Assembly (NCBI RefSeq): GCF_001748385.1
Contig: NZ_BCLI01000001.1
Coordinates: forward strand, 599,177-663,176
DNA from: Vulcanisaeta thermophila
Lineage (GTDB): Archaea > Thermoproteota > Thermoprotei > Thermoproteales > Thermocladiaceae
DNA length: 64,000 nt
Direction of reading: 5' to 3'
The notes below the pieces were generated by a model that saw only the letters and a list, made by a program, of their open reading frames with translations, was not told the origin of the DNA and ran no database searches. This document shows, in pieces, positions 9,472-56,139 of this stretch (its first letter is position 1; every line of letters begins with the position of its first letter). A program made the position numbers and the translations under genes.

Positions 9472-9504
9472 CAACAAAAGCAAGGAAACCACCGCACAAT
9501 GAGT

Positions 9505-9550
9505 CCCCGAGGACGACACCCCGGGAAAGCCGGGGCGCCAAGACTCGGGG
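9505..9550 (+). other. rRNA leader double hairpin
   Basis: The leader RNA folds into an outer stem CCCCGAG (9505-9511) / CTCGGGG (9544-9550) and an inner stem CCCCGG (9519-9524) / CCGGGG (9530-9535) with a GAAAG loop. The stability and position just after the likely start site suggest a 5' cap structure or a processing/antitermination element of the rRNA transcript. Confidence 0.6.
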
Positions 9551-9574
9551 ATGATTAAACCCCAAACCCCACCA

Positions 9575-39895: not shown

Positions 39896-42117
39896 TTAGC
39901 GTGAGGTACCACAGCAATAAGGGTCAGGGCTTACTCCTCATTGCCATGGTCATAGTACTCATGATACTGGTGATAGCCGTGCTCTATAGGGTATTCACCA
40001 TGACCCCAGCCTACATTTACCAGAGGAGCATTTACTACGCCTTCAAATACACACCCCAGGTAATTGTTCAGGAAATTGTGAACGCCATTCAATCCATAGT
40101 CCTGGGCTACGCAAGGAACTACAGCCAATTCCTAGTAAACAACGGGGTACTACTCTACATACACGCCCTAACCCAATACCCCACACCCTACTCCCTAGCC
40201 AACGTAATAAACACCCAGGTAAACCTACTCATAAACAGCATGTTCGTACCCACGGGACTAGCCGTACCCACCACCGAACCCAGCACCAGGGTCACCCTGG
40301 TCACGGGATTCTACGGAGCCCTATCAATACCCGGAATACACTACGTGTACTCAGGGGGCACGAGCTCCATGATAAGCGTACTAGTGAACAGCACGTATGA
40401 CATGCCCACCCTGGGCATACAGGGGTTAACAATACAGGGACTGGCAAACCTAACGGCAACCATCATAAACCCATCCACATCCACATGCAACGGAGGAATA
40501 AACCCAGAAACCCTCTACAGCAACGTAACATGCAAATTCAACTTCACAACAAACAACTACACATGCACGGGACCCAGCATAAACGCCAGCGGCCAAGCCA
40601 ATAACCTATGGGCACCAAGCCAATACGCCATAAACAACGGCGCACTCCAGTGGGTGAGAGGCAGTGGTTGGGTGGACAGTAACAAGAACGGCTTCGACGT
40701 ACTGGTCTTCGCGTACCCAGTCGATGAAATCACAGGAAACGCCGGATTCAGAGTAAGCGCATTATTCAGAATATTACCCAGCAGCAATAACTATGTAATG
40801 GGCTTTGAATTACTGACACCATGCCCCGCAGGAACCATGATAGCCAACACACTGGGTAGTTGCAACGGGGGCTATACCATTTACATTAAGAATAACTACC
40901 TCTACGTGAATAACAATCAAATAACCAAGTTTAAATCAATAAGTAACGTTAACGTGACAGTGATTGTTACCTGGAACCAACCAATACAACTAATAAGCAG
41001 CTCACAAAGCGCCCAAATGACCATCTACATAAACGGAACCCCATACTACCCAGGAACAGTAACACTACCCACACTCCACCAAATACCAAACACCGTGTTC
41101 GGAAACACCGCATACATGATGAGCGGAAACACAGGGCAGAGACCACTGGGTTCCTGGATGGGCATAATACTCCAGAACGCCGCGGTCACCTCAGCCTCCG
41201 TGTCCTTCATCAATAAGTACACGCTGCCTAGGAACGTCTACGTGGAGGTATCCTACAACAACGCACCCGCACTGGGCACCGAGATTAACCTCTACAGGGT
41301 AACCCCAATAACCGGCGCCGTGACCAGCAGCGTTAATTACACGGCATGCAACATAACGAGCAACGCCATAATCTTCAACGTAACAATGCCCTGGCCACCC
41401 AGGGGATACCCCACAACCCAGTACCTACTGGCAATTAACTACAGCGGCATAGTACTACTCCTAAACCCATGGTCCCCAGGGGCACTGGCGCAAATGGGCA
41501 TTAGCAACCCCACGGGACTACCCAGTGGGTACTCAGCATCCTCAATAGTACCGTACATAGCCTACCTACTCAATGAAACCAGCAACTCCCTAATTGAGTT
41601 AGTATACTTCGCAAACCCAGGAATACCCACCCTGCTCAGCATCTACGGCGGCACCACGGGGCTCTACATAACCAACATAATAACGCAGGCAAACTACGCA
41701 GTACTGGGCAATGTCGCGCCATTAACCACACTGAACATTATGAGGATTAACAATAAAATACCCATGGGGCTCCTAAGGATATTCACATTCAACGAATCAC
41801 TGTACAACCTAGCCACTGGGTACACGGTCATAGGCCAGGTCATACCACCAAAGCAAACACAGGAGGCTGGAATAAACACACAGAACTACCCGGGTGCATT
41901 CTACAACTTAATAGTCGAGTACATGCGCTTCCCAAACCAAACGCTACCATACACGTACTTCAACTACACAATACTCAACTGCCGAGGCACATCAATAGGC
42001 GGTAACCAATACAGCAACTACGCCATATACTTCACATACAACAACGGGCAATTAATGTACCTGGGCTACACACCACCATCAAAATTACCACCATGCCAAC
42101 AAGAGCAGTGGTGGTGA
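39892..42117 (+). CDS. Class III signal (prepilin-like) secreted protein 2, 741 aa
   Basis: The N-terminus is ...HSNKGQGLLLIAMVIVLMILVIAVL, with KG|Q leader processing expected, although the usual Glu is absent. A very long Thr/Asn-rich extracellular domain follows, with several putative N-glycosylation sequons. It may contain a jelly-roll/lectin-like domain (SGWVDSNKNGFDVLVFAYPVDEITGNAGFRVSALFRI, then NVTVIVTWNQP). It is the largest of the set. The start is GTG 39892, or GTG 39901, overlapping gene 1. It overlaps gene 3 by one base (TGATGA). A major adhesin or tip protein is a reasonable guess. Confidence 0.7.
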   Translation: MISVRYHSNKGQGLLLIAMVIVLMILVIAVLYRVFTMTPAYIYQRSIYYAFKYTPQVIVQEIVNAIQSIVLGYARNYSQFLVNNGVLLYIHALTQYPTPYSLANVINTQVNLLINSMFVPTGLAVPTTEPSTRVTLVTGFYGALSIPGIHYVYSGGTSSMISVLVNSTYDMPTLGIQGLTIQGLANLTATIINPSTSTCNGGINPETLYSNVTCKFNFTTNNYTCTGPSINASGQANNLWAPSQYAINNGALQWVRGSGWVDSNKNGFDVLVFAYPVDEITGNAGFRVSALFRILPSSNNYVMGFELLTPCPAGTMIANTLGSCNGGYTIYIKNNYLYVNNNQITKFKSISNVNVTVIVTWNQPIQLISSSQSAQMTIYINGTPYYPGTVTLPTLHQIPNTVFGNTAYMMSGNTGQRPLGSWMGIILQNAAVTSASVSFINKYTLPRNVYVEVSYNNAPALGTEINLYRVTPITGAVTSSVNYTACNITSNAIIFNVTMPWPPRGYPTTQYLLAINYSGIVLLLNPWSPGALAQMGISNPTGLPSGYSASSIVPYIAYLLNETSNSLIELVYFANPGIPTLLSIYGGTTGLYITNIITQANYAVLGNVAPLTTLNIMRINNKIPMGLLRIFTFNESLYNLATGYTVIGQVIPPKQTQEAGINTQNYPGAFYNLIVEYMRFPNQTLPYTYFNYTILNCRGTSIGGNQYSNYAIYFTYNNGQLMYLGYTPPSKLPPCQQEQWW

Positions 42118-43706
42118 TGAGCATGGCTTCCAGGGGTCAGGCCAGGGTCTTGGAGGCAATAGCAGCCATAGTGATACTGATAATCACCACGGCCCTACTA
42201 CCCACACTACTCAAAAGCCCCACAACAAACCTCCAAAGCCAGGTGGAAGTGGGCAGCGAGGCATACGCCTACAACGTACTGGGCCTCCTGGTTGGTAACC
42301 CACAATTCATAAACGTAGTATACACCAACAACTGGCCCGGGCTATACTCACTAATGAACACAGTGATCGGGCCCCAGTACAACTGGTACATAGCCATAAT
42401 ACCCTACTCCAAATTACTAACCACAGTACCCACACAGACCAGCAACTACGTGGCACTACCCATAGACCTAGTACAGGAATGGCTTGGGTACATACCCATG
42501 ACAAGCCCCGGGCAGTCGAGGATTGTGATAAACCTATACACAATAAACGAATTACTACCCACAGGCTACACCATAAACACCACGGCGCCCATGTCAAACA
42601 TAGCCTTCGAACAATGCCAGGGAGGAAACTGCAAACTAATCAACTGGTGGCTAGAGAGCTTCGACCCAAGGACCGGGGTTGCGGTGGTTTGGCTAAACAC
42701 CACGGGCGTGGTCAACATGATAATCTCAAGGAACCCCACATACCCATACAACCCAATAACCAACCAATACTGCACACAACCCTACTGCTACCCAGTGGGT
42801 GGGGTTAGCAACTTCATGAGCTCCACATACAACCTAAACCTAAACAACAAACCAGGATTCCTAAACTACACAACCCAATTAACATGCAACGGGCAACCCC
42901 AGTCACTACCAACACAGCTAATCACCAACGCCTACAGCGGGCCATTAACATCAACATGCACATACACACCAGGCAATAAAGTATACAACAACTACTACGG
43001 GTTCACCACGTACATGATTGGCCAATTAATAAATGCAATACCCGAATCCAGCGTATCACTGATGCTCAGTAACGGAGCGGCCACACTATACTCATGCACA
43101 CCCATATCCTGCAACCAAGTGGGGTCCGTGAACATTGGCAACATAGCCCTAGTCCTGACCTACGGCTACTCGCATGAGTACCTAGGCCTAGAGGTTAATA
43201 ACCAGTTGGCCCAGCAAATCCAGCTACCCACGTACTACTACACGTACCTACTTAGCCTCCACATACAACCAGAACCACTACTCTGCGCCATAACCATAAA
43301 CGCCACGTTCTACGACTACGTAACCACCACATCATACACACTAAACTACACATACAACCTTGGGAACTGCAACGGAGCCAATGAAATGACACTAACCTTC
43401 AGCGGGGTAACAGTGAGCCAGGAAACACCGAGCAACCCCATCGGCGGTGTGTACTACCTATACAGCATGAGGAGCATCATCTACGACATATGGACAACAC
43501 CCACACCCACCACCAACTACTACATGCCAGTCTACACAAACTACAGCCTAACCAGAATCGCACAACTCAACGTAGTCCCACCACAGTACAGCATGAGGAT
43601 ACCCACCACCCAGTTAATACCCACGGCAACGGCCATGGGGATAGTACAACTACCCAACGGAACATACTACCTAGTAATCCTAGAACTAATGAGCCTCGGC
43701 GGGTGA
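42117..43706 (+). CDS. Class III signal (prepilin-like) secreted protein 3, 529 aa
   Basis: MSMASRGQARVLEAIAAIVILIITTALLP shows RG|Q with Glu at +6 followed by a hydrophobic helix. The start is ATG 42117, overlapping gene 2's stop by one base; ATG 42123 is also possible. The body is about 480 aa, Thr/Asn/Tyr-rich, with paired cysteines (for example NQYCTQPYC) that may form disulfides. It ends LVILELMSLGG. No known domain recognised. Confidence 0.72.
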   Translation: MSMASRGQARVLEAIAAIVILIITTALLPTLLKSPTTNLQSQVEVGSEAYAYNVLGLLVGNPQFINVVYTNNWPGLYSLMNTVIGPQYNWYIAIIPYSKLLTTVPTQTSNYVALPIDLVQEWLGYIPMTSPGQSRIVINLYTINELLPTGYTINTTAPMSNIAFEQCQGGNCKLINWWLESFDPRTGVAVVWLNTTGVVNMIISRNPTYPYNPITNQYCTQPYCYPVGGVSNFMSSTYNLNLNNKPGFLNYTTQLTCNGQPQSLPTQLITNAYSGPLTSTCTYTPGNKVYNNYYGFTTYMIGQLINAIPESSVSLMLSNGAATLYSCTPISCNQVGSVNIGNIALVLTYGYSHEYLGLEVNNQLAQQIQLPTYYYTYLLSLHIQPEPLLCAITINATFYDYVTTTSYTLNYTYNLGNCNGANEMTLTFSGVTVSQETPSNPIGGVYYLYSMRSIIYDIWTTPTPTTNYYMPVYTNYSLTRIAQLNVVPPQYSMRIPTTQLIPTATAMGIVQLPNGTYYLVILELMSLGG

Positions 43707-44425
43707 TGGGCATGGACAAGGGCCTAAGCGAGTCCCTGGTCCTGATGATAATAATCACAGTAACCATAACACTGGCCCTACTATTCTACGCCTTCGCATA
43801 CTACGGACTAGGCTCAGTACTCTCAAACGCCTTCATAGCGCAGGCTGAGAACACCATGGAGAACATGGCCTACGACCTAGGCGCCGCACTCTCAGGACCC
43901 AGCGTGGGCAACTCCATAACATACCCAATACCCAACTCCCTAGTGAACACAATGCTCGTAGCCCAAAACTACTGCAACCTAACAATAAACGGGACCCAAT
44001 ACCCAAGCCACGCATTAATAATAGGCGTACCACCCACATACACATCACTACCCACGGGATTCAGGGAATCACTAATAGGTGAGAACCTAACCATAGCCAA
44101 CAACACACCACCCTTCAACGTAGCCCTAATGGGAGCCACGAAAATAAACGGCATAAACCTAGGCGAGTACCTAGTCCTATACCCAAGACTCTCAATTTAC
44201 GGCTCAGGAAACAACTACCTAATAATCTACCCAAGATTCAACGCAGCACTCACAAGCTCAGTGCCGGGGCTAGTCATACTCAACATAACTGGGGTAACGA
44301 CAATAAGCCTCAGCAACGCCACAATAACGTACACCTGCGGGTTCGGCGCCCAATCCTTCAGTTGGGGGATAAGCAATATAAGTGGGGAAATTGAAATAAT
44401 AAACATAGTGATCCAGTATGGGTAA
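43706..44425 (+). CDS. Class III signal (prepilin-like) secreted protein 4, 239 aa
   Basis: MGMDKGLSESLVLMIIITVTITLALLFYAF has KG|L with Glu at +3 and a hydrophobic helix, then a Thr/Asn-rich extracellular part with cysteines (NYCNLTINGT). The start ATG 43706 overlaps gene 3's stop by one base. A longer upstream open frame from 43490 lies inside gene 3 and is not coding. It is a mid-size pilin-like protein and may be the major structural subunit together with gene 5. Confidence 0.72.
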   Translation: MGMDKGLSESLVLMIIITVTITLALLFYAFAYYGLGSVLSNAFIAQAENTMENMAYDLGAALSGPSVGNSITYPIPNSLVNTMLVAQNYCNLTINGTQYPSHALIIGVPPTYTSLPTGFRESLIGENLTIANNTPPFNVALMGATKINGINLGEYLVLYPRLSIYGSGNNYLIIYPRFNAALTSSVPGLVILNITGVTTISLSNATITYTCGFGAQSFSWGISNISGEIEIINIVIQYG

Positions 44426-45191
44426 GGGCCAGAGCGAGGTACTATCCACAGTAATACTAGTAGCCACAATACTCACAATAAGCGCGATATTCCTAGCCCT
44501 ATCCATGATGAACATGGTTAGAACATCAACTTACTACTCAATAACCTACGTAGCATCATTCCTAACAAACATAGCCGACGACCTGGACACCTTCATGCTA
44601 AGCCCAGGCACAGTACTCACATACCCACTACCAAAAACAGGCACGGGAGTATTCAACACAGTGAGCAATGAATGCACAATAACAATAACCACGGGAGGCA
44701 CGGAAATACTAAGGGAGGAATCAGCGGCACTAGTATACGGAGTACCACCAAACCAATACTCACTACCCAGCAACTACGCCTACGTATGGAGAGGAACCAA
44801 CAAACAGGGCTACCCAGTAACCACCACAAACCAACTCTCACTAGTACTGAAACCCAGTGGGTACACACCCATGGGCACCATAACCACAGTAATCCAGTAC
44901 GGCTACGGACAGGTGGACGGCATCGCCTACGGAACATACATAATCCTAATCCCCAGGGTCCTAGTACTCACGGGACCCATAAACTACGTCTACATACCCA
45001 CAATACACACAATACTAAACACAGGCAGGAACACACTCTACATAAAAATAATCACCATATCCTCAACATCCATAACCCTAAACCAACCCATGGAAATCAC
45101 GGAGAACTGCAACAACGAAACAAGCACAGCCACAGTACCCCCAGGAACCACATACATAATAAACATAAACATCGGCATGGGCATGGGGTGA
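44418..45191 (+). CDS. Class III signal (prepilin-like) secreted protein 5, 257 aa
   Basis: MGKGQSEVLSTVILVATILTISAIFLAL is the clearest archaeal prepilin leader in the set: KG|Q with Glu at +3, as in the DUF361/class III consensus. The rest is a Thr/Tyr-rich extracellular domain with at least one cysteine pair (ECTITITT; ENCNNET) near each end. It resembles gene 4 in layout (for example YGVPPNQYSLPSNYAY versus VGVPPTYTSLPTGF), so the two look like paralogues. It overlaps gene 4 by 8 bases. Confidence 0.75.
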   Translation: MGKGQSEVLSTVILVATILTISAIFLALSMMNMVRTSTYYSITYVASFLTNIADDLDTFMLSPGTVLTYPLPKTGTGVFNTVSNECTITITTGGTEILREESAALVYGVPPNQYSLPSNYAYVWRGTNKQGYPVTTTNQLSLVLKPSGYTPMGTITTVIQYGYGQVDGIAYGTYIILIPRVLVLTGPINYVYIPTIHTILNTGRNTLYIKIITISSTSITLNQPMEITENCNNETSTATVPPGTTYIININIGMGMG

Positions 45192-45195
45192 CAGC

Positions 45196-45741
45196 ATGAA
45201 CACCCTAGCCTTCATAATAACCACCGTGGCCCTAATGGCCCTCGTAATATTCTACACATACTACACCTACTACTACACAGCACAGAACCTAGTGAACACC
45301 GTAGACTACGTACAATCCCTCGTAACCACCGCACTAAGGCACGAAATAACAAACGCCATATCCATAGCATCCATGGGCAACGTAGCGGGAACCTTCAACT
45401 ACACCCTCATAATGCCCACATCAGCACTCTCCACACAGGGAATAGCCATAAACTACGTAGTAAACCTATACCAGGAAAACAACAACGGAGTCTACGAACT
45501 AATGGCAAACATAACCGTAACAGCAAGCATAGGACCCATAACAAAAACAACACAACAAACCACCACACTATACGCAGCACAACAACCATACACAATAACC
45601 GCCTACAACTGCCAAAACACAAACCAACCAACAACCATAATGTCACCAAACCAACAAACACAAACATGCACATGGACCACCACCACATTCCTACAGGGAA
45701 AAGCAACCATAAGCATAACAAAACCACAAAGAAAACCTTAA
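45196..45741 (+). CDS. Small secreted or membrane-anchored protein of the pilin operon, 181 aa
   Basis: MNTLAFIITTVALMALVIFYTYYTYYY is a hydrophobic N-terminal segment without the K/R-G processing site seen in the other five, so it is probably a signal anchor. The C-terminal 100 residues are Thr/Gln/Asn-rich with two cysteines and end in a basic KPQRKP. The start is 4 bases after gene 5's stop. It is last in the operon; its stop codon overlaps the tRNA-Gln TATA box. The DNA is extremely A/C-rich. Confidence 0.65.
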   Translation: MNTLAFIITTVALMALVIFYTYYTYYYTAQNLVNTVDYVQSLVTTALRHEITNAISIASMGNVAGTFNYTLIMPTSALSTQGIAINYVVNLYQENNNGVYELMANITVTASIGPITKTTQQTTTLYAAQQPYTITAYNCQNTNQPTTIMSPNQQTQTCTWTTTTFLQGKATISITKPQRKP

Positions 45742-45775: not shown

Positions 45776-45851
45776 AGCCGGGTCGTCTAGCGGCCAAGGA
45801 TGGCGGGCTCTGGACCCGCAGACCCCGGTTCGAATCCGGGCCCGGCTACCA
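45776..45851 (+). tRNA. trnQ: tRNA-Gln (anticodon CUG)
   Basis: The acceptor stem is AGCCGGG/CCCGGCT, with A1-U72 and an encoded CCA. The anticodon stem-loop is GCGGG CTCTGGA CCCGC, giving anticodon CTG (reads CAG), and the T arm is CCCGG TTCGAAT CCGGG. No intron is present. The gene is immediately followed by a perfect hairpin (45865-45895) and then the TnpB-like element. Confidence 0.93.
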
Positions 45852-45864
45852 AACCCATCCTCAC

Positions 45865-45895
45865 CCCACAAAACACCCCACGTGGGGTTTGTGGG
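45865..45895 (+). terminator. Perfect hairpin after tRNA-Gln
   Basis: CCCACAAA and TTTGTGGG pair around an ACA bulge and the palindrome CCCCACGTGGGG (45876-45887). It may terminate the tRNA transcript or mark the edge of the mobile element. Similar CACGTGGGG palindromes occur at 5663-5672 and 47545-47556. Confidence 0.5.
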
Positions 45896-45937
45896 CGTGG
45901 GTTGTAGGCGTAAAACTTATTAGGTGGTTTATTGTCG

Positions 45938-46160
45938 TTATCTCAGCCCGGGGCTTTGGGTGGCTCCGGGCTGTTTCAGTGAGCCGTTTGTGGCGGGCTC
46001 GGACCCTTCCGCTATACGGCTCCCGCCGCATAGCGGACTGCCAATCATTTGACGCATCACGTATCCCATGTTCATCATTCTTTTCCCCAGCCCGGGGTGG
46101 GTGGGCCCCGGGCTGGGTGCCCGGAGCCCCTGCCCACCCCGGGCCGGGCCTATGTGTTTC
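45938..46160 (-). ncRNA. Possible omegaRNA region at the 3' end of the TnpB-like gene
   Basis: In TnpB elements the guide RNA overlaps the 3' end of tnpB. Here that part is very GC-rich and contains a 9-bp perfect hairpin AGCCCGGGG / CCCCGGGCT (46089-46097 and 46106-46114) with an 8-nt loop. The scaffold and guide junction cannot be seen directly. This is an inference from the family. Confidence 0.35.
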
Positions 46161-46948
46161 CTGAGTGCTAGATACGCTAAGGCTGTGATGTAGCTTATTA
46201 CCATGGTTGCGTTGTAATCTCTATCTATGACGTACAAGCCGCATTTTACTAATCGGTGGGTTAGTTTTGTTGCGGGTGTTGTTTTTCCGTGGAGCCATAG
46301 GTTTGGTCCGCATATTGATGATGTGTATTCTGGGTTTATTTGTAGTAGGTGGTAGTAGTTGTGTTTGTGTGTTTTTGTGTCGTATTTTATGTATTTGGTT
46401 TTTCCGTTTTCTTCCTCGATTAGTATTGGTATTGAGGTGTGTATTGGTACTTCAGTGGTTTGGTTGGTTAGTGTATTGTAGATTTGTCTATATGCTAAGT
46501 AATCAATTTGGCGTTTTTTGTGTATTCCTCTCAGGTCTTCCAGACCAATTATCAGCGTTGTGTTTTTAGTGTTCTTTAACCTCCTGCCCAGCTTTATTAG
46601 TTGTGTTGTTAATACAGTAATTAGAATTTTTCTGTGCCTTCTTACGTGCTTTCTATTCGATAGTGGCAGGAATGCCTTTAGGTAGATGAAGGCGTGGTCT
46701 CCGTAAGGCCACGTGTGTATTACGTAGTTGTTGAGTGCTCGTGTCCTCTTAACATCCTGTATATAACTGGTGACGTCATTGAATAGGGGCTTCGGCACGT
46801 AGAACACCATGTCAATAGACCTCTTGTTTTGGTCAATCCCCACGACCACGACTGGGGCCCGGCGGGCCGGGTTTCCCCCGTTGGTGCTTGAGGCATTTGA
46901 GGCGCCTCGCCCCGGGGTTCCCTCGTTTTCGTTCTTTGGGTTCGCCAT
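45938..46948 (-). CDS. RuvC-only TnpB-like nuclease (OrfB family), N-terminally reduced
   Basis: The RuvC catalytic residues are present: D39 in VVVVGIDQN, E137 in LIIGLEDLRGI and D242 (or D244) in VIDRDYNATMVI. Only two of the usual zinc-finger cysteines remain (C213, C236). The normal 150-180 residue N-terminal WED/REC part is missing; the protein opens with a Gly/Asn/Ser/Pro linker and the first RuvC strand. The tail (NGSLKQPGATQSPGLR) is like the TnpB C-terminus that overlaps the guide RNA. ATG 46948 is used; the open frame runs on upstream to 47089. No TnpA transposase is adjacent. Function may be decayed or repurposed. Confidence 0.75.
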   Translation of the reverse strand: MANPKNENEGTPGRGASNASSTNGGNPARRAPVVVVGIDQNKRSIDMVFYVPKPLFNDVTSYIQDVKRTRALNNYVIHTWPYGDHAFIYLKAFLPLSNRKHVRRHRKILITVLTTQLIKLGRRLKNTKNTTLIIGLEDLRGIHKKRQIDYLAYRQIYNTLTNQTTEVPIHTSIPILIEEENGKTKYIKYDTKTHKHNYYHLLQINPEYTSSICGPNLWLHGKTTPATKLTHRLVKCGLYVIDRDYNATMVISYITALAYLALRKHIGPARGGQGLRAPSPGPTHPGLGKRMMNMGYVMRQMIGSPLCGGSRIAEGSEPATNGSLKQPGATQSPGLR

Positions 46949-46953
46949 ACACT

Positions 46954-47122
46954 CCACCTGGGATAGACTACCCGGGCCCTTGAGCGCAGTGCAACCCAGG
47001 GTTTTGCTCTGGGCTGCACTGCACCGGGCCCTATTGAGAAGGAAGGATTTGGAGGTTGGTGGGCCCGGGCGTGGGTTTCCCCACGCCAAGGCCCAAGGGC
47101 CAGGGTAGTCTATCCCAGGTGG
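46954..47122. repeat. 20-bp perfect inverted repeat enclosing a three-way junction
   Basis: CCACCTGGGATAGACTACCC (46954-46973) is the exact reverse complement of 47103-47122; with one mismatch the repeat extends by about 5 more bases. Inside are GCAGTGCA/TGCACTGC with CCCAG/CTGGG (46986-47022), GGGCCC boxes, and GGCGTGGG/CCCCACGCC. It ends 6 bases upstream of the TnpB-like start. It could be a MITE-like insertion, the end of an IS, or a structured leader RNA. Confidence 0.7.
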
Positions 47123-47131
47123 GGTGTGCCT

Positions 47132-47177
47132 AACTATTCCTCTGGGTTGCTTATGAGTTTACTGCTTCGTTGCCCCC
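47132..47177 (-). pseudogene. Relic of a TnpB C-terminus
   Basis: On the minus strand GGC-AAC-GAA-GCA-GTA-AAC-TCA (GNEAVNS, inside 47154-47177) is followed, after a stop and a shift of one frame, by KQPRGIV (47152-47132). These two pieces are the usual tail of archaeal TnpB proteins (NEAVNSLKQPRG). The rest of that gene is gone. An older TnpB element was therefore present here. Confidence 0.55.
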
Positions 47178-47228
47178 TACGCGTTAATGCGCCTTTATGC
47201 ATTGGTGCTTTGGTGCGTTGGGTGTCAA

Positions 47229-47476
47229 GCCCCGGGTTGTCCCGTCCCCCTCTCCCTCGGTCCGTGGGCTCGCGTCCTCCCCTACCTCATCCGTGAGTCC
47301 ACGGACCAGCCCGTGGGGTTTACCAGCTCCTCCCCTACCTCATCACTGGCACCACCACGGGCCCAGGCCCCCCTCGCGAGGGGCCCTTTCCTTTATGGGC
47401 GGCCCCCACGAGGGATTAAGCATGAAAAGGGAGTGGGAGGGAGAGAGGAGTGGGTTTTAACGGGCAACCCCGGGGC
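47229..47476. ncRNA. Predicted closed multibranched RNA (~250 nt), class unknown
   Basis: The ends pair: GCCCCGGGTTG-T-CCCGT (47229-47245) with ACGGG-CAACCCCGGGGC (47460-47476), 16 bp with two single bulges. A second helix is CTCTCCCTC (47250-47258) / GAGGGAGAG (47437-47445). Enclosed are hairpin A GGTCCGTGG/CCACGGACC (47259-47267, 47299-47307), hairpin B GCCCGTGG/CCACGGGC (47309-47316, 47355-47362) and palindrome C CCCCTCGCGAGGGG (47370-47383). A and B carry the same 16-nt loop CCTCCCCTACCTCATC (47276-47291, 47329-47344). The strand is unknown. It lacks SRP helix 8 and RNase P P4 motifs. No ORF fits. Confidence 0.6.
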
Positions 47477-47565
47477 GCAGTGGGTTTTGTTGCTGAGGCG
47501 CTAAGCAACTAAGCCGCTGAATCCTCATTACCCACGCTACCCACCCCCACGTGGGGCTTGAATCA

Positions 47566-47612
47566 ACCCCGAGTAGTGCACCCTGGCTACACCAGGGGGC
47601 CGACCTCGGGGT
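47566..47612. ncRNA. Imperfect hairpin with a symmetrical internal loop
   Basis: ACCCCGAG (47566-47573) pairs with CTCGGGGT (47605-47612); inside a 7 x 7 internal loop (TAGTGCA / GGCCGAC), CCCTGG (47581-47586) pairs with CCAGGG (47592-47597). The outline resembles an H/ACA guide hairpin, but I see no ACA box or K-turn, so it may instead be a terminator of the structured RNA or an element end. Confidence 0.35.
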
Positions 47613-47707
47613 CTCATTGTGTGGTTGTTTACTTATATGATGGGGTATGGGTTTAAAAGGGGGGTATTGTTGTTGGGTGTTTTATGGGGTGTGGTTATGG
47701 GTGGGTT

Positions 47708-48595
47708 TTACTTTTTGATTATCACGGTCATGTTGGTCGTTATGTACCAGTACCACGTTGTGGGGAAAAGAGTGGTGAAGCTCTTTGGTTCTCCAATGGA
47801 TACCTCCAGTGTTATTGGGTATGTGGTGCCGTTGACCAACGGGCCGATTGGTTCTGTGTAGCAGTAACCCGTTGGTGAGGACCTCAACTGCTCACTAACA
47901 TACGTCCCTGGCGCCACCTCAGTGAGCGACTGGATGTTTGGGTACCCAGTGAGGTAGGTGACTGTGCCGTTGACATTGGCGTTGAAGTAGACCAGGTAGT
48001 ACCAGTAGGTGCTGTTCCATAGGATGCGTGTTGTTGATAATGGCCAGTACTGCCCGTCGCAGAGCCAGTAACTCCTAACCCACAGTGCACTTAGGTTCTC
48101 TGGGTCGTAAACAATGAAAACAAGCGAGCCTATGCCCACTCCTATGGGTTCGCCGTAGCTGAAGACGCCGGGTAACTCATTGCCGTTTATGAGCCAGGTG
48201 GCGTTCTGCGAGAGCAAAGCCCTCAGCATGGGCGTCACCGTGACCGGGACCTTGAGCACAGCCGTCCCGTTCTGGTAAACCTCTAGGACTGCGTTGCCCA
48301 TGCAGAGTCCATTGATGCATTGGGGTACGGTTTTGTTGATGTAGATGGGCACGTAGACGGTTTTGTTTATGTAAACGGGCACTGTTTGGTTCACGTAAAC
48401 GGTCCTGTTTATGTACTCAACCACGGTCCTATTCACGTAAATAATCTCGGTGCTTGTTAGGTGGAGGGTGTTGGTTATTGGCCTTAGCTGGGGTACGTAG
48501 TTGCTCAGGACTGCCATGGCCAGTAGGGCAGCGAGCACGGCGGCTATGGTGACTGCGGTGTAGAGTTTTCCCTTTCCTGGGTCTCCCTGCTGCAT
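47708..48595 (-). CDS. Membrane-anchored extracellular protein with N-x-T tandem repeats
   Basis: The N-terminus has a hydrophobic segment (LYTAVTIAAVLAALLAMAVL) and then five or six tandem copies of the pattern [VI]-N-[RQK]-T-V, each an N-glycosylation sequon (about residues 58-100 of the 295-residue product). A globular extracellular part with Trp-rich strands and cysteines follows. ATG 48595 is exactly 26 bases from the TATA element (48616-48626), so I shorten the open frame from 48661. It lies just downstream of the cedB-like gene on the same strand. It may be a glycosylated collar or adhesin of the transfer apparatus. Confidence 0.65.
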   Translation of the reverse strand: MQQGDPGKGKLYTAVTIAAVLAALLAMAVLSNYVPQLRPITNTLHLTSTEIIYVNRTVVEYINRTVYVNQTVPVYINKTVYVPIYINKTVPQCINGLCMGNAVLEVYQNGTAVLKVPVTVTPMLRALLSQNATWLINGNELPGVFSYGEPIGVGIGSLVFIVYDPENLSALWVRSYWLCDGQYWPLSTTRILWNSTYWYYLVYFNANVNGTVTYLTGYPNIQSLTEVAPGTYVSEQLRSSPTGYCYTEPIGPLVNGTTYPITLEVSIGEPKSFTTLFPTTWYWYITTNMTVIIKK

Positions 48596-48697
48596 ACTTA
48601 CCCTAATCATGTGCGTATTTAAAATAATTCTGCCCACCCCCACAACATCACACCAAACCACTGTCGTAAAGCGGTGACTCTTGTTTTGATGGGTTTG

Positions 48698-50776
48698 TTA
48701 TTGGTTTTGTTTTATTGTTGGTTCTAATTCTATGTAGCCGAGTCTCTTTATGGGGCCTGTTATTATGAGTGCCTTTGTGGTTAGGGCTTGCATGTGGGGT
48801 GGGAGTGCCGTGCTCAACCACTTAATGTCCTCATCGGTGAGTTTGTACTTCTCGGCTACGCTTAGCACGTACGGGTCCGGCCCGCCTAAAATCACGGCCA
48901 GTGGTATGTTTCTGATTATGTCATCGTCGATGTCGGATAGTGTTTGTGTTATGAAGATTGTACCAAGTCCGAACTTCCTGAGGCCCCTAACGTAGAGTTG
49001 GCTCAGTGGGTTTCTCAGGACGTAGTAGGCCTCATCAACCACCAGCAACTGCTGTAGGTGTTCGCCGATGTTCCTGCTCATTGTGTAGGTATATGTGTGG
49101 TCTATGATGTTGAGCATCATGAATTCCATGATGTCTGGTACGGGCCTGGTGTTGGTGAAGAGTAGGGCTTTGTTGTTGAGTAGTTCTGGGGTGCCCACGA
49201 TCTTTGCATCGCCTAGGTAGCTCATGATTTTGTCCAGCACAAGCCCTGTTCGTGTATCCTCAACCTCTAGGCGAAGCTTCCTCATTGCTTCGTGGAAGTC
49301 GTGGTATGTGTCGTCTAGGTATAATGTCCTTAATGCTGGGATTAGGGAGTTTGGATCCACGCCGAACACTGTGGTGAATGTGTTGGCTATGCGGTCTATG
49401 CGTTCTATGTCGGTTACTCCGTCGAGCTCGAATATGTTTATGAAGGTCTTGGTTGCGTCGATGGGCTCGATACCGGGTATCCTTAGGTACTCACCGTGTG
49501 GGTCCAAAATGAGGACCTTGATTCCGCTCTTCATCAATCTGTACAGTATTGTTGAGACTGTCCAGGTTTTGCCCATACCCGTTGGGCCCACCACCAGTGC
49601 GTGCCCACTCGGTAGTGCGTCCAGGTCTATGGTTAAGTCCCTATTCTCCCTATCCCTGCCGAGCTTAACCACTGCCCTCGTGGAGGTGCTCACTAGCTTG
49701 CCCCCGTGGAATATGGGTATCACGGCTATGTCGAAGCTCAACTCGTTAATGCTGGGCTCAACCCACAGGTGTAACTGGGTTGTTGATGCCCTGAAGACCA
49801 TGTACGGGTTATTCAGCGGCTTGTCCAGTGCGATCATCACCTTCACAGGCTCCTCGGCCCTTTGTGTAATTCGATCAAGAACCACTCTCCACTGCTGGCT
49901 CCTCGCCAGGGACTTACCCCTCTCCTGCACAACGAACCTCTCGTACTCCCTAGCCACCCTAGCCACCACCTCGCCACGGAACTCCGGGTTGCTAGTTATG
50001 GCAATGGCGTAATTACTCACTAACGAGGCGTTGGACTCCGCAATCTGCTTGATGTCCTCCTCCTCGGGCATTGTGAAGTACATAACAGACCCAGCAAGCC
50101 TAAACCTAAGTGTGCTGAGCATGCCACCCCTCACAACGCTGTAATTACCCAGGGACTTTACGGTGAGTGCTGTAAAGGGTATTGTGAAAGCCAGTGAGTA
50201 TGGGCCCATGAGAAGGTAAGCAACCAAGGCCAGGACAGCCAGGGCAGCGGCATTCCTGGCCCTACTAAGGGGTTTGGGGAAGCCCATGAGTTTCCTCAGC
50301 TCGGGCCCGTCGAGTGGAGTTAGTATGAAGTACTGCCTAAGCACAGCCTCTATGGCGCTTAGCCTGGTGCGTACTGAATCCGCATCATTCCCCGAACCCC
50401 TCAGTGAGGCCCTCACGTACTTCTGTCCATTCACGCTCATGAATGTTACGTACTCGCCATGGCCTAGGCCCAGCCTACGTAGTAGTTCTGACCATAGGTT
50501 TGTGTACTGAGGCCCGGTGAGCCTGGCTAAGTCGTAAAGCGGTTCTGCTTTGTACACCACGTGGAATACGCCGTTCTTTGCGTCGTAGACGTAGTCCTCC
50601 ATAACCACGAGCCTAGGCGCCAAACCAGGATTCACCAGCGACAGGAAGCCCTCAATGAGCCAGTCCCTAACGTCCTTAATAATTAGTAATAGGGGTAGTA
50701 GCAGGGCCAGTGGGTGGTAGGCGATTCCAATGATTAGTAGTGTGGTTAGGAGTGTCCATTTGAGTGTGGGGTTCAC
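48698..50776 (-). CDS. Membrane-anchored VirB4/HerA ATPase (CedB/TedB-like)
   Basis: Two N-terminal transmembrane helices (about residues 7-33) and another pair near 175-200 are followed by an accessory domain. A HerA/VirB4-type motor comes next: Walker A GPTGMGKTW near 397, Walker B QLLVVDEAYY near 577, and a sensor region (TIFITQTLSDID). This layout matches CedB of Sulfolobales and TedB of Thermoproteales, ATPases that import DNA between cells. The 692-residue protein overlaps the giant gene by 4 bases (ATGA). CedA/TedA-like gene is at 61996; the small pilin (CedA1/TedC) was not found in the window. Confidence 0.8.
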   Translation of the reverse strand: MNPTLKWTLLTTLLIIGIAYHPLALLLPLLLIIKDVRDWLIEGFLSLVNPGLAPRLVVMEDYVYDAKNGVFHVVYKAEPLYDLARLTGPQYTNLWSELLRRLGLGHGEYVTFMSVNGQKYVRASLRGSGNDADSVRTRLSAIEAVLRQYFILTPLDGPELRKLMGFPKPLSRARNAAALAVLALVAYLLMGPYSLAFTIPFTALTVKSLGNYSVVRGGMLSTLRFRLAGSVMYFTMPEEEDIKQIAESNASLVSNYAIAITSNPEFRGEVVARVAREYERFVVQERGKSLARSQQWRVVLDRITQRAEEPVKVMIALDKPLNNPYMVFRASTTQLHLWVEPSINELSFDIAVIPIFHGGKLVSTSTRAVVKLGRDRENRDLTIDLDALPSGHALVVGPTGMGKTWTVSTILYRLMKSGIKVLILDPHGEYLRIPGIEPIDATKTFINIFELDGVTDIERIDRIANTFTTVFGVDPNSLIPALRTLYLDDTYHDFHEAMRKLRLEVEDTRTGLVLDKIMSYLGDAKIVGTPELLNNKALLFTNTRPVPDIMEFMMLNIIDHTYTYTMSRNIGEHLQQLLVVDEAYYVLRNPLSQLYVRGLRKFGLGTIFITQTLSDIDDDIIRNIPLAVILGGPDPYVLSVAEKYKLTDEDIKWLSTALPPHMQALTTKALIITGPIKRLGYIELEPTIKQNQ

Positions 50777-53700
50777 GGTTTTTTGTTTCGGTTGTTTTTA
50801 AGGGGTTCCTGCCCCGCCCCCTCCTTATCACCTCCTCCCTCGCCCCTGAGTTTTTCTAGGGTTTCTGTGGATATCCTCGTCATGTCCTCCCCCACCCTTT
50901 CCGCGTAATTGGTCTTTGCCTTTATGTACTCGTTATGCATTCTCCATGGTGGGTACTCGCTTGGTGCTATTTGTGATTTAATCAGTGCAATGCCCACGGC
51001 GTTTAATCCTAATAATTGCGTGAGTATTACTAGGCGTGAGTAGGGCTCCTCCCTGATTAGGTCGGGGTTTTTCGATAGTCTCTTTGAGAGAGCGTTTGTG
51101 AGTATCTCGGTTACTGAGTATATTAACTCCGCTGCCTCCCTTTCATTCTCCATCTTCTTTGGGTCAAACCTGTAGCCCGTGCGTTTCTCTATCTCATCAG
51201 CCTTAATACCGCCTAGGCTTGCCAATGCCTCGGCTATGTGCAGCATGAGTATGTCGTAGGGTAGGGCCCAGTCCCAATAACTGGGCCTCTCCTTACGCTC
51301 CTTAATGTAGTTCTCGTAGGCATTCACATCCCTCTCCCATAACTCATGAACTATGTTGAGTAGGTGTAGTAGGTTTTCCCTGGCCGTATTCTTTAGGAGT
51401 CCCAGGTGTGGTTCTAGGAATGAGTCCATGCCCTTAATCACCATGTTCTTTAAATCCTCGGGCTTTATCGACCAGACATTACCACCAAACCACATAACCA
51501 ACTCCCTAAGCCTGTTTATGTCGGGGTTTGGCGCGCTCCTTGCGTAGTCCATTACGGCTAGGTAGTACCGCTCCTCACCTTTCCTTAGGTACTTGCCCGC
51601 CCTCTTGAATATCTCCTCGGCTATTGGGTTATTCCTCATTAGGTAGCCTATTGCCTTCCCCAGCTCGGGAAGTAGCTCTGGGTGCTTCTTAATTGCGCTC
51701 CACTTAAGTGTTGCTGCGTACCTAGCCGCCCTCTCCAAGTCCTCCTCGCTCAATTCCCCAGGGGGTTTGTCCATGGCTTTCAATCCCTCGGTTAGCGGCG
51801 TCATGGAGAGTAGTACTGGTATGTAGTTCTCAAGCAGTACTGCGTGGTATGAGGGGCCTATGCTCAGGGCCTCGTTTAGTACTGCGTATGGTCCGTACAT
51901 GATTATCCTAGCCCTCCACCTGGGTGCGCTGTGGTTTATTACCAACTCCCTAATGACATCCACGATGCCACCCTCATTGGGTATGCCCAGTACCTTCGCC
52001 AGTTCATTGAATGGTTCGTCCTCATTGATTGCGTATAGCACCACGTCCTCTATGACCTTCCTGGACATGTCCATGGCCACCAGGTTAAGGGGTGCCTCGA
52101 GAACCCACTTGGGTAGTTCCTTGGAGAGTAACCCCATGAACTCCTCATTTAACCTCTTCATCAACCTATCCACTACGCCGTAGGCCTCTAGGGCCTTATT
52201 CACTGCGTACTGAATGGCCTCGTCTAGGTAACCCTCACGCTTAAATTTCTCGGTTAACTCATTGAGTACGGCCTTAACATCCTCCACATCAGCCGTGGGT
52301 GTGCGGATTACCGAGAGGATGCGGGATAGGGCCTCCCTGAGTAATTGGTTGTACCTGGCCTCCCTGGCAATGTTGTAAAGCTTACCCGCGTCGCGGTCCA
52401 GGTGCGCCATGATTATTGCCTTGAGGCCCGCTGCAGCGTTCACGTTTTTGGAGAGTTCCTCATCCATGACGCTCCTCAGTATTGCTGTGATGATGGACCT
52501 CAGCGCCTCATCCCTGGCCTGCCCCAGGACCTCGGTCTTGTACTCCATAATGCGCCTGGCGCGGTTAGCCTTGAAGTCGTTCTCTGCCATTATGGGTATT
52601 CTAACGGTCACCTCACTCACGAGGGCCCTAATCCTCTCCTCAATGGGCACCTTGGCAACCCTGGCGAGTATGGAATCCACCTCATCCACATCGCCCCTCA
52701 TAATCGCATTGTACCACCTCCTCCTGAGCTCCTCATCCCTCTGTATCATGTAGGCTCCCGTTAGGTAATGGGCTATGAGCCCCATGGGGTTGGCAACACC
52801 GGCAATCTTCAGGAGCCCAGCTAACTCCTCAAGGGCTTTAAGCACCGTCAAGCCCTCATTACTCTTCCTGAGTTGGTTGAGGGTTTCGCCAAAGAGGTTC
52901 ATTGACTCCTCCATTGCCTTCTTCAATGTTTCAGTTCCACTATTAATCACGCCCATTATCCTCACGAACTCCTCACTATACCTATTGATTAAACGCTGCA
53001 ATGCCCTCCTCTCCAGGTTCTTACTCTCGAAGTCACCCCTCAACACCCTAGCCTTCAACCTAATCCCCAGCTCATGGAGGTACCACTGCCTGAAGAGGTC
53101 GGGCTTTGACGTATCGAGCCTTGGGTAGCCCCTTATCCTCTCCCTCATCATCCTCAATGCGCGCTCCACAGTGGGTAGGAAGCCCCTACTCCAGACTGCG
53201 TTGTACGTGTTCACCGAAGCCTCCGTTACGTTCCATGTGGTGCGGAATGTGTTAAATATACTCACCAACTCATTGGCCCTTGATATGAACGGTGACATGG
53301 AGGTTTCGAAGGAGCCCTCAATAACCCCAGCCAACGCCTTGGCGGGGTTCACCAACGCCAATGCCGTGTCTATGGGAGCGCCCATCCTACGAGCCCTACC
53401 CAGGGCCCACCCTGGCAACCCACTCATTGAATCCCTGGCGGGCACCCTCATCGCACCCCTAGGAGTTTGCACCAGGTTATTCAAGGTTTTTGTGGAACCC
53501 ACGGTCACAGCCCTGACATCAAGCCCCTCAAGACCTCTAATCCTGCCCCGCCACCTACTCATGAACATTAACCTATAATCATTACTATATATGAAACGCC
53601 CACCCTGCATTGCATCCCTATAGTAATTCCACCTGGCCATGTGGTGGAGGGCCCCGGAGAACCTTAGGAGTAGGTTAGCCCTCCTGGTATTACCACTAAC

Positions 53701-56139
53701 CAAGGCCTTACTAGCCCTCCTCCTTAACTCCCCAGATGCCATTTCCAAACCCGCCTCCCACGGATCAACAACAAGCCTAACCCACTTATTGTTCAACCTC
53801 CTAGACACCTCGCCAACCAGGGTGTTGGCCCTCATGCCCACGTATTGAATGGACTCCACAGCCCTCAATACGTGTATACCCAACCTAAGCGATGATGAGG
53901 CAAGGGCCCTCCTAACCCTACCCAACCTAGTGCTTGGTTCGGGCGCATACGTCAGTTGGCTCAACCTCCTCGCTAGGCCCTCCCTGGCCTTCCTAGCCCC
54001 ACTGCCCACTGTCCTTAATGATTTCCTAACCACTCTCCCAACGACCCTGGTAAGCCCCGTCATCCTTAGGTACAGCACCAGGGATAAGTCGTAAATCACA
54101 TCCTGCAGTAGGCCCCAGACAGGGTTTAGGAGTGCTGGTAGGCCCACTGTGTATGCCCCCGCGTCTAGTAAGCCGATTACTGACACCGTCCATGCCACCC
54201 ACTTAAAGACGTACCAACCCACGGAAGCCAATAGTGAGTTGGTCCCGCTCATGCTTAGTACGGTATTCCATGCCGTGGATAACCACGTGAGGTTTCCATA
54301 AATTAGTGAATTCACAATCCAGGAGGTTAGGGGCGTTATTACCAGTGGTGCCTCCCCATACCACGGATTTGCGGCATTACCCACCAATGTTAATGAGCCA
54401 TTCACCCAGTCAATCACCCAGTAATCCTCAACGGGGCTGCAAATCACCACCTCATGGGGCGCCGGTGAACAGTAGCTCCAGTACTCGGATGAATTACCTG
54501 GATAGGACACGTAGGCAAACCACATAAACTGCCCATAGCCCAGGGGCTTGGGGTTAGGAAGTGATGCGGTGATGGATGGACTTCCCCAGTGCAGCTTCTC
54601 TGCCATGAATTCCGTCTCATTGCGCACCTTCCCAATGAATTGCCTGATTAGGCTTAGTTGTGGCCCTATGTCCACCTGCCTATACAGTGTTGAGTTCGTG
54701 ACCCACTGCCCGTAGGTTATGTTGTACCCAGGAATGAGGTGAGTGGTTTGTGGGCTTGGTATTAGCTTCAAACCCCAGAACCAAAGCCTCGCCTCCCTAC
54801 TTTCTGACTGGCACAGCGTTATGGTTTGTGTGGTTGTTTCGTTTGTTAACTCGTTGATCCTGGTTACGTTGTAGACCGTACACTCAATATTCAACTGTAA
54901 ACCGTAGTTTATGTACACGGTATTATTGGTCTCATTAACCGAGAAGTAACTGGGCGCCTCAAGCCACTTCCAAGCACCCGAATAACCACTCACATTCGTA
55001 CTAACCCGTATTAACTCAAACGGCGCCCCACTTATGCTCTCCACAACCATGTACGTCTCATTAGGGTATGTAATCGAGCGGTAAAGCCAGTGGGCGCTGG
55101 AGCATGGTTCTGACACGGGACTCCCAATCAATGATTGGTTCTTCACACTCACCTCATAAATGATTAATTGACACGACTCACTTACCGAGTGTGTTACATC
55201 AAGCCAGAGTAGTGTGACGTTATTTATGAATATGGGGCCTAGAACTGGGGCTACACCAATGGCCCCCGTACCGTATGCTAGGAACCAGGTTTGATTACCC
55301 AGTATGGCGTACCAAGTGCCATTCAAATTCTCAACCTTGTTATAGACATAGCCCGAGACCAGGACAGGCACTGGGCTTTGAAATGCCACGAACCCCGCTA
55401 GGGTTTGGTTATGGGGTAGGTTATTCCCTACGGTCATGGTTATGTTGGTCAGTGTCTCATTCCAGTAATGAAGTAATTCCTCATTCTGGGCAGCCCCTAT
55501 CGTTGCCGCAGCCAGGCCTGTGAAGAACATTATGGCCATCGCCATCAGTGCAAGGGCCCAACCCAGTGACCTGGTACCCCTAACTATAAGTAGTGGTATT
55601 GCCACCGCTATTATGACTGGTACCCAGTGGGTTGTGAACCAAGCCGTCCATGCTATTGTGTGAAGTACCGCAACCATTAACTGGGCAAAGTGGTTAATCG
55701 CCGAGAGTACATCGGCAATGGGATCCAACACCCATCCTAACCCCATGGGCGTTGCATAGTAAGGTATTGGTTGGGGGATTATGAAGTTCCTCAATACCCA
55801 ACTGGCTATGGTTGGTATGGGCATTGCGAGTAGGGCGATTATGTTAAGTACTGTCATTGTAACCGCCACTAGGAACCATATTGATGCTGTGACGTAGGCA
55901 ATACCGTACCAGTCTTCCTCAGCGGTAACAGCCCACTTGTATACTCCCTCAAAGCCCATTAATGGCGCCCCAATCAAGTCCGGTATCACGTATGCTGTTA
56001 ATGCGTAGATAATGAGTATAGAGGCCCCTGCGTAGAACAACCTCACGTACTCCCTACTACCCCTCCTAAGTAGTGAGTACACTAGGATTATAACTGCCTC
56101 TATGGGTACCACATACTGGAGTAACCAGGAATCCATCAC
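50773..56139 (-). CDS. Giant polytopic membrane protein with large cytoplasmic helical domain (1,788 aa)
   Basis: The N-terminal 220 residues contain about five transmembrane helices. An extracellular region of about 400 residues with many N-x-S/T sites follows (for example WNETLTNITMTV), then two more helices (VGWYVFKWVAWTVSVIGLLDAG, and VLYLRMTG). The last 1,080 residues are soluble, charged and mostly alpha-helical (numerous Glu/Lys/Arg heptads). The protein sits between, and is translationally coupled to, the CedB-like ATPase. The topology recalls VirB6 or TraG-like channel proteins of conjugation systems with very long cytoplasmic extensions, but no specific family is recognised. The start is ATG 56139 or 56136. 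Confidence 0.7.
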   Translation of the reverse strand: MMDSWLLQYVVPIEAVIILVYSLLRRGSREYVRLFYAGASILIIYALTAYVIPDLIGAPLMGFEGVYKWAVTAEEDWYGIAYVTASIWFLVAVTMTVLNIIALLAMPIPTIASWVLRNFIIPQPIPYYATPMGLGWVLDPIADVLSAINHFAQLMVAVLHTIAWTAWFTTHWVPVIIAVAIPLLIVRGTRSLGWALALMAMAIMFFTGLAAATIGAAQNEELLHYWNETLTNITMTVGNNLPHNQTLAGFVAFQSPVPVLVSGYVYNKVENLNGTWYAILGNQTWFLAYGTGAIGVAPVLGPIFINNVTLLWLDVTHSVSESCQLIIYEVSVKNQSLIGSPVSEPCSSAHWLYRSITYPNETYMVVESISGAPFELIRVSTNVSGYSGAWKWLEAPSYFSVNETNNTVYINYGLQLNIECTVYNVTRINELTNETTTQTITLCQSESREARLWFWGLKLIPSPQTTHLIPGYNITYGQWVTNSTLYRQVDIGPQLSLIRQFIGKVRNETEFMAEKLHWGSPSITASLPNPKPLGYGQFMWFAYVSYPGNSSEYWSYCSPAPHEVVICSPVEDYWVIDWVNGSLTLVGNAANPWYGEAPLVITPLTSWIVNSLIYGNLTWLSTAWNTVLSMSGTNSLLASVGWYVFKWVAWTVSVIGLLDAGAYTVGLPALLNPVWGLLQDVIYDLSLVLYLRMTGLTRVVGRVVRKSLRTVGSGARKAREGLARRLSQLTYAPEPSTRLGRVRRALASSSLRLGIHVLRAVESIQYVGMRANTLVGEVSRRLNNKWVRLVVDPWEAGLEMASGELRRRASKALVSGNTRRANLLLRFSGALHHMARWNYYRDAMQGGRFIYSNDYRLMFMSRWRGRIRGLEGLDVRAVTVGSTKTLNNLVQTPRGAMRVPARDSMSGLPGWALGRARRMGAPIDTALALVNPAKALAGVIEGSFETSMSPFISRANELVSIFNTFRTTWNVTEASVNTYNAVWSRGFLPTVERALRMMRERIRGYPRLDTSKPDLFRQWYLHELGIRLKARVLRGDFESKNLERRALQRLINRYSEEFVRIMGVINSGTETLKKAMEESMNLFGETLNQLRKSNEGLTVLKALEELAGLLKIAGVANPMGLIAHYLTGAYMIQRDEELRRRWYNAIMRGDVDEVDSILARVAKVPIEERIRALVSEVTVRIPIMAENDFKANRARRIMEYKTEVLGQARDEALRSIITAILRSVMDEELSKNVNAAAGLKAIIMAHLDRDAGKLYNIAREARYNQLLREALSRILSVIRTPTADVEDVKAVLNELTEKFKREGYLDEAIQYAVNKALEAYGVVDRLMKRLNEEFMGLLSKELPKWVLEAPLNLVAMDMSRKVIEDVVLYAINEDEPFNELAKVLGIPNEGGIVDVIRELVINHSAPRWRARIIMYGPYAVLNEALSIGPSYHAVLLENYIPVLLSMTPLTEGLKAMDKPPGELSEEDLERAARYAATLKWSAIKKHPELLPELGKAIGYLMRNNPIAEEIFKRAGKYLRKGEERYYLAVMDYARSAPNPDINRLRELVMWFGGNVWSIKPEDLKNMVIKGMDSFLEPHLGLLKNTARENLLHLLNIVHELWERDVNAYENYIKERKERPSYWDWALPYDILMLHIAEALASLGGIKADEIEKRTGYRFDPKKMENEREAAELIYSVTEILTNALSKRLSKNPDLIREEPYSRLVILTQLLGLNAVGIALIKSQIAPSEYPPWRMHNEYIKAKTNYAERVGEDMTRISTETLEKLRGEGGGDKEGAGQEPLKNNRNKKP

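Follow-up and report, generated by a model that had tools for sequence, protein, structure and literature searches.

The bulge-helix-bulge (BHB) of archaea, a 4-bp helix between two 3-nt bulges, is a substrate of the splicing endonuclease, rRNA precursors included (PMC7714728), and BHB introns carrying LAGLIDADG homing endonucleases are known from the 16S and 23S rRNA genes of Thermoproteales (PMC4496867). In the 64-kb stretch of Vulcanisaeta thermophila DNA analysed here (the window), we found an element of roughly 1.8 kb (45876-47659) that resembles these introns in having a BHB stem at both ends, in enclosing a LAGLIDADG ORF in its relatives and in occurring in ORF-less versions. Unlike them, it interrupts no rRNA, tRNA or protein gene, being flanked upstream by its own rRNA-type promoter and leader and downstream by an opposing tRNA gene; it also holds a large structured domain with matched twin loops, and its nuclease may be TnpB-like. 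We rejected an ordinary BHB intron as a classification for the window's copy, which has the BHB stem but neither an interrupted host gene nor a LAGLIDADG ORF.

Two other systems bear comparison on grounds of layout. With archaeal pre-16S rRNA the element shares a leader hairpin, the type of TATA spacing and a BHB stem around the RNA, but the enclosed RNA has no Rfam match, is thus not rRNA, and contains an ORF; having the same leader as the 16S operon, the locus would work like an rRNA-type transcription unit rather than being a member of that class. As in HEARO/IscB, the nuclease ORF of a mobile element is preceded by a structured RNA, but here a BHB and an rRNA leader are present, and HEARO/IscB was rejected because the element has no gathering-level HEARO match and the Pfam scans returned no HNH match.

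The best reading is that of a free-standing, intron-like element with interchangeable nucleases. Comparison of its copies leads us to favour, with some confidence, the view that the structured region is the core RNA domain of a multi-copy Vulcanisaeta mobile element built like a miniature rRNA operon, with an RNA released through the BHB, swappable nucleases, and loops that share a copy-specific partner. Our search of mostly open-access literature found no description of such an element. Were transcript and processing confirmed, it would represent a new class among the large structured RNAs of archaea, borne by mobile elements that borrow the leader and processing stem of rRNA.

An rRNA-type leader and a BHB stem

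The twin-loop RNA region is one domain of the element, which is multi-copy in its own genome. Read on the minus strand, the element runs from a TATA box through a 5′ leader hairpin, a BHB arm, the twin-loop domain and a TnpB-like RuvC ORF to the matching BHB arm, past which it faces the 3′ end of tRNA-Gln (45776-45851, plus strand), a neighbour outside the element, 24 nt away. The initial annotation had placed the RNA on the plus strand; the leader, the TATA box, the ORF and the strand of every relative put it on the minus strand instead.

The TATA-like promoter box lies at 47650-47659 (minus strand, CTTTTAAACC) and, in the minus-strand reading of the right flank, is followed by CACAATGAGACCCCGAGG...CTCGGGGTTGAT; the 16S rRNA operon of the same window opens with CACAATGAGTCCCCGAGG...CTCGGGGATGAT, about as far from its own TATA box. 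Wherever a copy's region is covered, the position of the box is conserved: it precedes the leader by about 25-30 nt, a spacing also seen at the 16S rRNA operon. The leader hairpin itself (47553-47622, minus strand, ACACAATGAGACCCCGAGG...ACTCGGGGTTGATT) was identified by a leader pattern and by a covariance model of the leader (R1), and its counterpart at the 16S rRNA operon occupies 9494-9564 on the plus strand. Across the whole genome the strict pattern has five exact occurrences, namely the 16S rRNA operon and four element copies, and R1 gives seven strong matches, six elements and the rRNA operon, which are the same seven loci on which it was trained; its scores of 87.0 bits at the element leader and 87.2 at the rRNA leader are accordingly scores for members of the training set. 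The model also detects the leader before 16S in other Thermoproteales.

In Thermocladiaceae and some of the Thermoproteaceae, 16S rRNA operons are preceded by this conserved hairpin, which also stands before non-rRNA loci (9494-9564, L037-L065); a description of it was not found in the literature search. In other genomes (L075, L077, L078, L079, L080) it occurs as well, several times per island, before genes of what may be a larger mobile or defence island, one that encodes a HerA-like ATPase and a DinG-like helicase. We regard the rRNA leader hairpin of Thermoproteales as a portable element. A kink-turn reading of the leader was rejected: G-A/G-A flanks are present, but an outer stem is not evident, and the leader is therefore called a 5′-terminal hairpin only.

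The BHB arms lie at 47531-47556 (CCCCACGTGGGG-GTGG-[GTA]-GCGTGGG) and 45876-45901 (CCCACGC-CCAC-[AAA]-CCCCACGTGGGG), both on the minus strand. In a strict BHB scan the window scored 21, against a shuffled maximum of 11-12, and two further copies of the same genome scored 22 (C1b) and 19 (C4), each against 15 for shuffled sequence. The strict 3-nt/4-bp/3-nt form also exceeds shuffles at three loci of other Vulcanisaeta (L084, L081, L085), where the outer BHB helices are quite different yet complementary. Two extra bases lie beside the helix in copies C1c and C7, and L077 likewise has a BHB with two extra bases; L083 and L159 are borderline, and the scan of L154, L173, L078 and L087 did not find the motif. 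The end of contig C4 and the start of contig C3 look like two halves of one copy, with an inner helix that is changed but complementary (GCCTGGG/CCCAGGC).

The RNA domain occurs in at least 8 places in its own genome, the other seven being 78-95% identical to that of the window. Half of these copies (four of eight) sit at contig ends, so the true number may be higher; contigs C3, C4, C6, C7 and C9 of this genome (G000) end inside element copies. No copy of the domain was found by BLAST in 60 related genomes, and a model of the window's family (R2) had no match in 39 relatives; nor did viral contigs, searched with the twin-loop and leader patterns, or phages and plasmids, searched by BLAST, give any match.

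The structured domain and its twin loops

The region folds better than shuffled sequence on both strands (z of -3.6 on the plus and -2.7 on the minus strand); folding energies do not separate the strands, and the z-score is better on the plus strand in most copies. Both closing helices of the initial annotation are present. The 5′ strand of P1 (47460-47476) pairs with 47229-47245 over 17 nt (82% complementary), and the P2 strand that is pyrimidine-rich in the minus-strand reading (47437-47448) pairs with 47247-47258 over 12 nt (92% complementary), so that the purine-rich 3′ strands of P2 and P1 together occupy 47229-47258. The sequence of P1 is swapped between copies while complementarity is kept, with GCCCCGGGGTTG/CAACCCCGGGGC in C4, to which the window is similar, and TGGGTTCCCTGCC/GGCAGGGAACCCA in C1b and C7. 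Comparing closing-helix energies across copies did not discriminate, since every pyrimidine strand can pair with every purine strand; by the longest perfect closing helix, which we used in place of energies, a copy's own partner is clearly best in only some copies. Pairing of the loops with the purine-rich 3′ side, which had been suggested, is unlikely because that strand already makes the closing helix.

Compensatory changes in other copies (two G-C/A-U pairs) define a long hairpin C at 47371-47414. The 14-nt palindrome CCCCTCGCGAGGGG that had been taken for this hairpin does exist at 47370-47383, but it is not the conserved pairing. Hairpin B, the first loop hairpin in the minus-strand reading, spans 47309-47362 and has in copy C9 a different stem that still pairs; hairpin A, the second, spans 47259-47307, and its G-U pairs on the plus strand become A-C on the minus strand. 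The two 16-nt loops were correctly described as identical: CCTCCCCTACCTCATC is exact at 47276-47291 and 47329-47344, so that loop 1 (47329-47344) and loop 2 (47276-47291) both read GATGAGGTAGGGGAGG on the minus strand, with no third match at up to 2 mismatches within the 64-kb window. A second structured domain (46949-47127, minus strand), a 37-nt inverted-repeat stem with arms 92% complementary around two inner hairpins, lies directly before the ORF start and is partly common to copies C1b, C6 and C7.

A gathering-level Rfam scan of the whole window returned rRNA and tRNA only, with no match in the element, and an E-value scan of the element gave chance-type matches only; the exclusion of SRP RNA, RNase P RNA and tRNA therefore stands, and extends to rRNA. 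In other Vulcanisaeta, non-rRNA leader matches are often upstream of a GC-rich structured stretch and a nuclease ORF, and these stretches follow a common plan of a long pyrimidine/purine closing helix, a hairpin C and two loop hairpins. With R3, a model built on seven such stretches, 14 copies came up in six further Vulcanisaeta genomes, each preceded by the leader on the same strand; the other genera searched gave none. The window's own family is not among the R3 matches, and by covariance model neither family detects the other, so the homology of the two families rests on the leader, the BHB, the order of the hairpins and the twin loops. The proposal of a new structured RNA is thus supported by an element that has no Rfam match, is multi-copy, has covarying helices and recurs with the same architecture in six other Vulcanisaeta genomes.

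The evidence on the loops goes further than identity in one copy. In a first set, aligning a copy's two hairpins with each other gave scores of 16-21 in 11 of 13 copies, versus a between-species mean of 9.2; in the R3 set the within-copy score is 14-21 in 12 of 14 copies, versus a between-species mean of 9.9 (sd 3.2). The hairpin windows were picked after seeing the first seven copies, so the six held-out copies are a fair test, and all six show matching loops. When partners were permuted, the observed sum was reached in 0 of 100,000 trials. In one genome (G005), each of the four copies has a loop pair of its own; at L188 and L197 the twin loops are not clear. The loops of a copy therefore change together while the underlying stems differ, and the earlier idea of a conserved loop function is not merely supported by these scores and the permutation but strengthened. 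L083 and L173 have the same loops and a 96.7% identical domain, yet their ORFs are about 25% identical; loop sequence is therefore not tied to the ORF beside it.

Both loops of a copy probably bind one copy-specific partner, and because the loop sequence is independent of the neighbouring ORF, a nucleic acid is a more likely partner than a protein. Loops that are alike within a copy and free to vary between copies form a strong and unusual evolutionary signature of recognition, which offers a direct means of searching for the partner. Three specific readings were tried and rejected. Pairing with rRNA was represented in the window by a single chance-type site at 3 mismatches, outside rRNA; a box C/D reading, suggested by the resemblance of GATGA to box C, lacked a box D in the right place by eye; and loop palindromes or kissing hold true for L189 and are not general.

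Nuclease genes and rival readings

The window's ORF (45938-46948, minus strand, 336 aa) matches Cas12f1-like_TNB of Pfam with an E of 2.3e-5, just below the cut-off, which is passed in two other copies (3e-8 and 3.6e-7), and alignment places D, E and DRD RuvC motifs in it. Its structure model reached a pLDDT of 68.9, and Foldseek gave no significant match to it; used as a protein query against the genome contigs, the ORF likewise gave no match. The ORF proteins of four copies are 36-60% identical to that of the window, against 88-95% for the RNA domain when full copies of the same genome are compared; by this measure conservation is stronger in the RNA than in the protein. Downstream of the ORF lies a conserved 3′ region. 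In copy C4, read by eye, the same N-terminal segment is joined to a TnpB of a different kind, whose frame is apparently broken. C1c has no ORF, yet keeps the leader, the domain, the 3′ region and both BHB arms. Also by eye, a 3′ arm elsewhere in the genome (L207, G000:C1:181543) stands after an ORF with the LAGLIDADG-like motifs YGDGS and FADGT.

In the relatives the ORF family is a LAGLIDADG homing endonuclease, whose AlphaFold model (pLDDT 90.7) matched I-Tsp061I and I-DmoI in Foldseek at a target TM of about 0.55. Vulcanisaeta genomes contain about 20 or more members of this family apiece, most of which lack leader or RNA and some of which are broken (L145-L184). Two unrelated nuclease families, TnpB-like and LAGLIDADG, are thereby linked to one type of RNA scaffold. 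The initial annotation had offered the RNA as a partner of the TnpB-like gene. The RNA does usually precede a nuclease ORF, but an exclusive TnpB-like partnership does not hold, since another TnpB or a LAGLIDADG enzyme can take the place of the TnpB-like protein, and C1c lacks an ORF altogether.

Under the mobile-element reading that we favour, transcription would start from the leader promoter, and the splicing endonuclease would cut the BHB, freeing an RNA that contains the structured domain and the ORF. The freed RNA would probably be circularised, as archaeal rRNA is and as some omega-RNAs are reported to be (PMC12558985). The encoded nuclease would drive the spread of the element, and the two loops of a copy would both bind the same copy-specific partner. 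One could go further and envision a new RNA-guided homing system in which the twin loops serve as a programmable module for two-fold recognition, with two identical guides on a circular BHB-released RNA that would position two nuclease molecules or two DNA sites, and with free exchange of both nuclease ORFs (TnpB-like or LAGLIDADG) and loop sequences; we consider this doubtful.

Alternatively, the domain may be a regulatory 5′ untranslated region of the ORF behind it, in which a host protein binds the twin loops. The domain does precede the ORF on the same strand, and two identical loops would suit a protein that binds twice. However, C1c keeps the RNA without an ORF, and the loops differ among copies within G005, which a single host protein would not favour, so this explanation is unlikely.

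It is quite unlikely that the RNA is the guide of the TnpB-like nuclease (OMEGA), the domain being the scaffold and the loops or an RNA end guiding cleavage. As in IS200/IS605 TnpB-omega-RNA systems, a TnpB-like nuclease with RuvC motifs and a Cas12f1-like_TNB match adjoins a structured RNA in a repeated element, and circular isoforms of IS200/IS605 omega-RNAs have been reported in archaea (PMC12558985). The guide RNA of those systems sits at the 3′ end of tnpB and matches the element flank, and the conserved 3′ region after the window's ORF may leave room for such an RNA. The twin-loop RNA, however, precedes the ORF instead of overlapping its 3′ end; moreover, one loop sequence is common to copies at different sites, and no guide match was found, the loop having no match at up to 1 mismatch outside elements in its own genome. 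The same architecture also occurs with LAGLIDADG enzymes in place of the TnpB-like one, and LAGLIDADG enzymes need no guide.

Two variable loops on neighbouring hairpins, matched per copy, resemble the two-loop logic of IS110 bridge RNA (PMC11208160), and the loops could be identical because donor and target share one sequence. Such a two-site recombination guide is very unlikely here: bridge RNA loops vary between elements as these do, but those of the element are identical rather than donor and target specific, and its ORFs are RuvC/TnpB-like or LAGLIDADG. We rejected IS110 bridge RNA as a class since there is no IS110 Pfam match, and hence no IS110-type recombinase, and since the search of the genome with the loop at up to 2 mismatches gave exact and 1-mismatch sites in elements only.

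The structure might also act as DNA, its hairpins and palindromes serving as a transposon end or replication origin while the RNA is functionless, and GC-rich inverted repeats, similar folding energies on both strands and high copy number would agree with this. Against it stand three features that are hard to explain at the DNA level: an rRNA-type leader that is linked to a promoter and confined to one strand in 14 of 14 relatives, a stem of the splicing-endonuclease type, and loop identity that is kept while stems change; we regard a DNA-level role as highly improbable, and the plasmid-type origin of the initial annotation is not supported. An RNA on the plus strand is hardly credible, for although G-U pairs form there in hairpin A and in P1 of C1c and the z-score is better in most copies, the conserved promoter is absent on that side, and leader, TATA box, BHB and ORF are all on the minus strand, as on the equivalent strand of every relative.

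Placement and surroundings

Element 3′ arms, searched at up to 3 mismatches, number 12 in the own genome, with none in the 12 relatives searched. In nine of the 12 cases, the gene opposite is a tRNA or 5S rRNA gene whose 3′ end points at the arm, with a spacing of 21-26 nt in five of them, and the chance of one arm facing such a gene within 300 nt is estimated at well under 1% (about 50 genes in 2 Mb). The placement looks like an insertion preference directly downstream of stable RNA genes, and from copy number and placement we infer that the element is mobile.

Three 3′ arms (L095, L205, L208) lie 235-260 nt from a tRNA, not 21-26 nt, and in two of these the gap between arm and tRNA holds a segment with CCATGGTTCACAGG-type sequence. 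At L209 (about 600-1250), a CRISPR-like array with the repeat GAAGATTTCACAAGAAGATTGAAA and variants is located between copy C1b and another element 3′ arm, which adjoins tRNA-Tyr. In the window, the flanks of the element (42093-45741 and 47708-56139) encode small proteins resembling pilins, a HerA/VirB4-like ATPase (48698-50776) and a membrane protein of 1788 aa, a set reminiscent of crenarchaeal DNA-import (Ced/Ted) loci.
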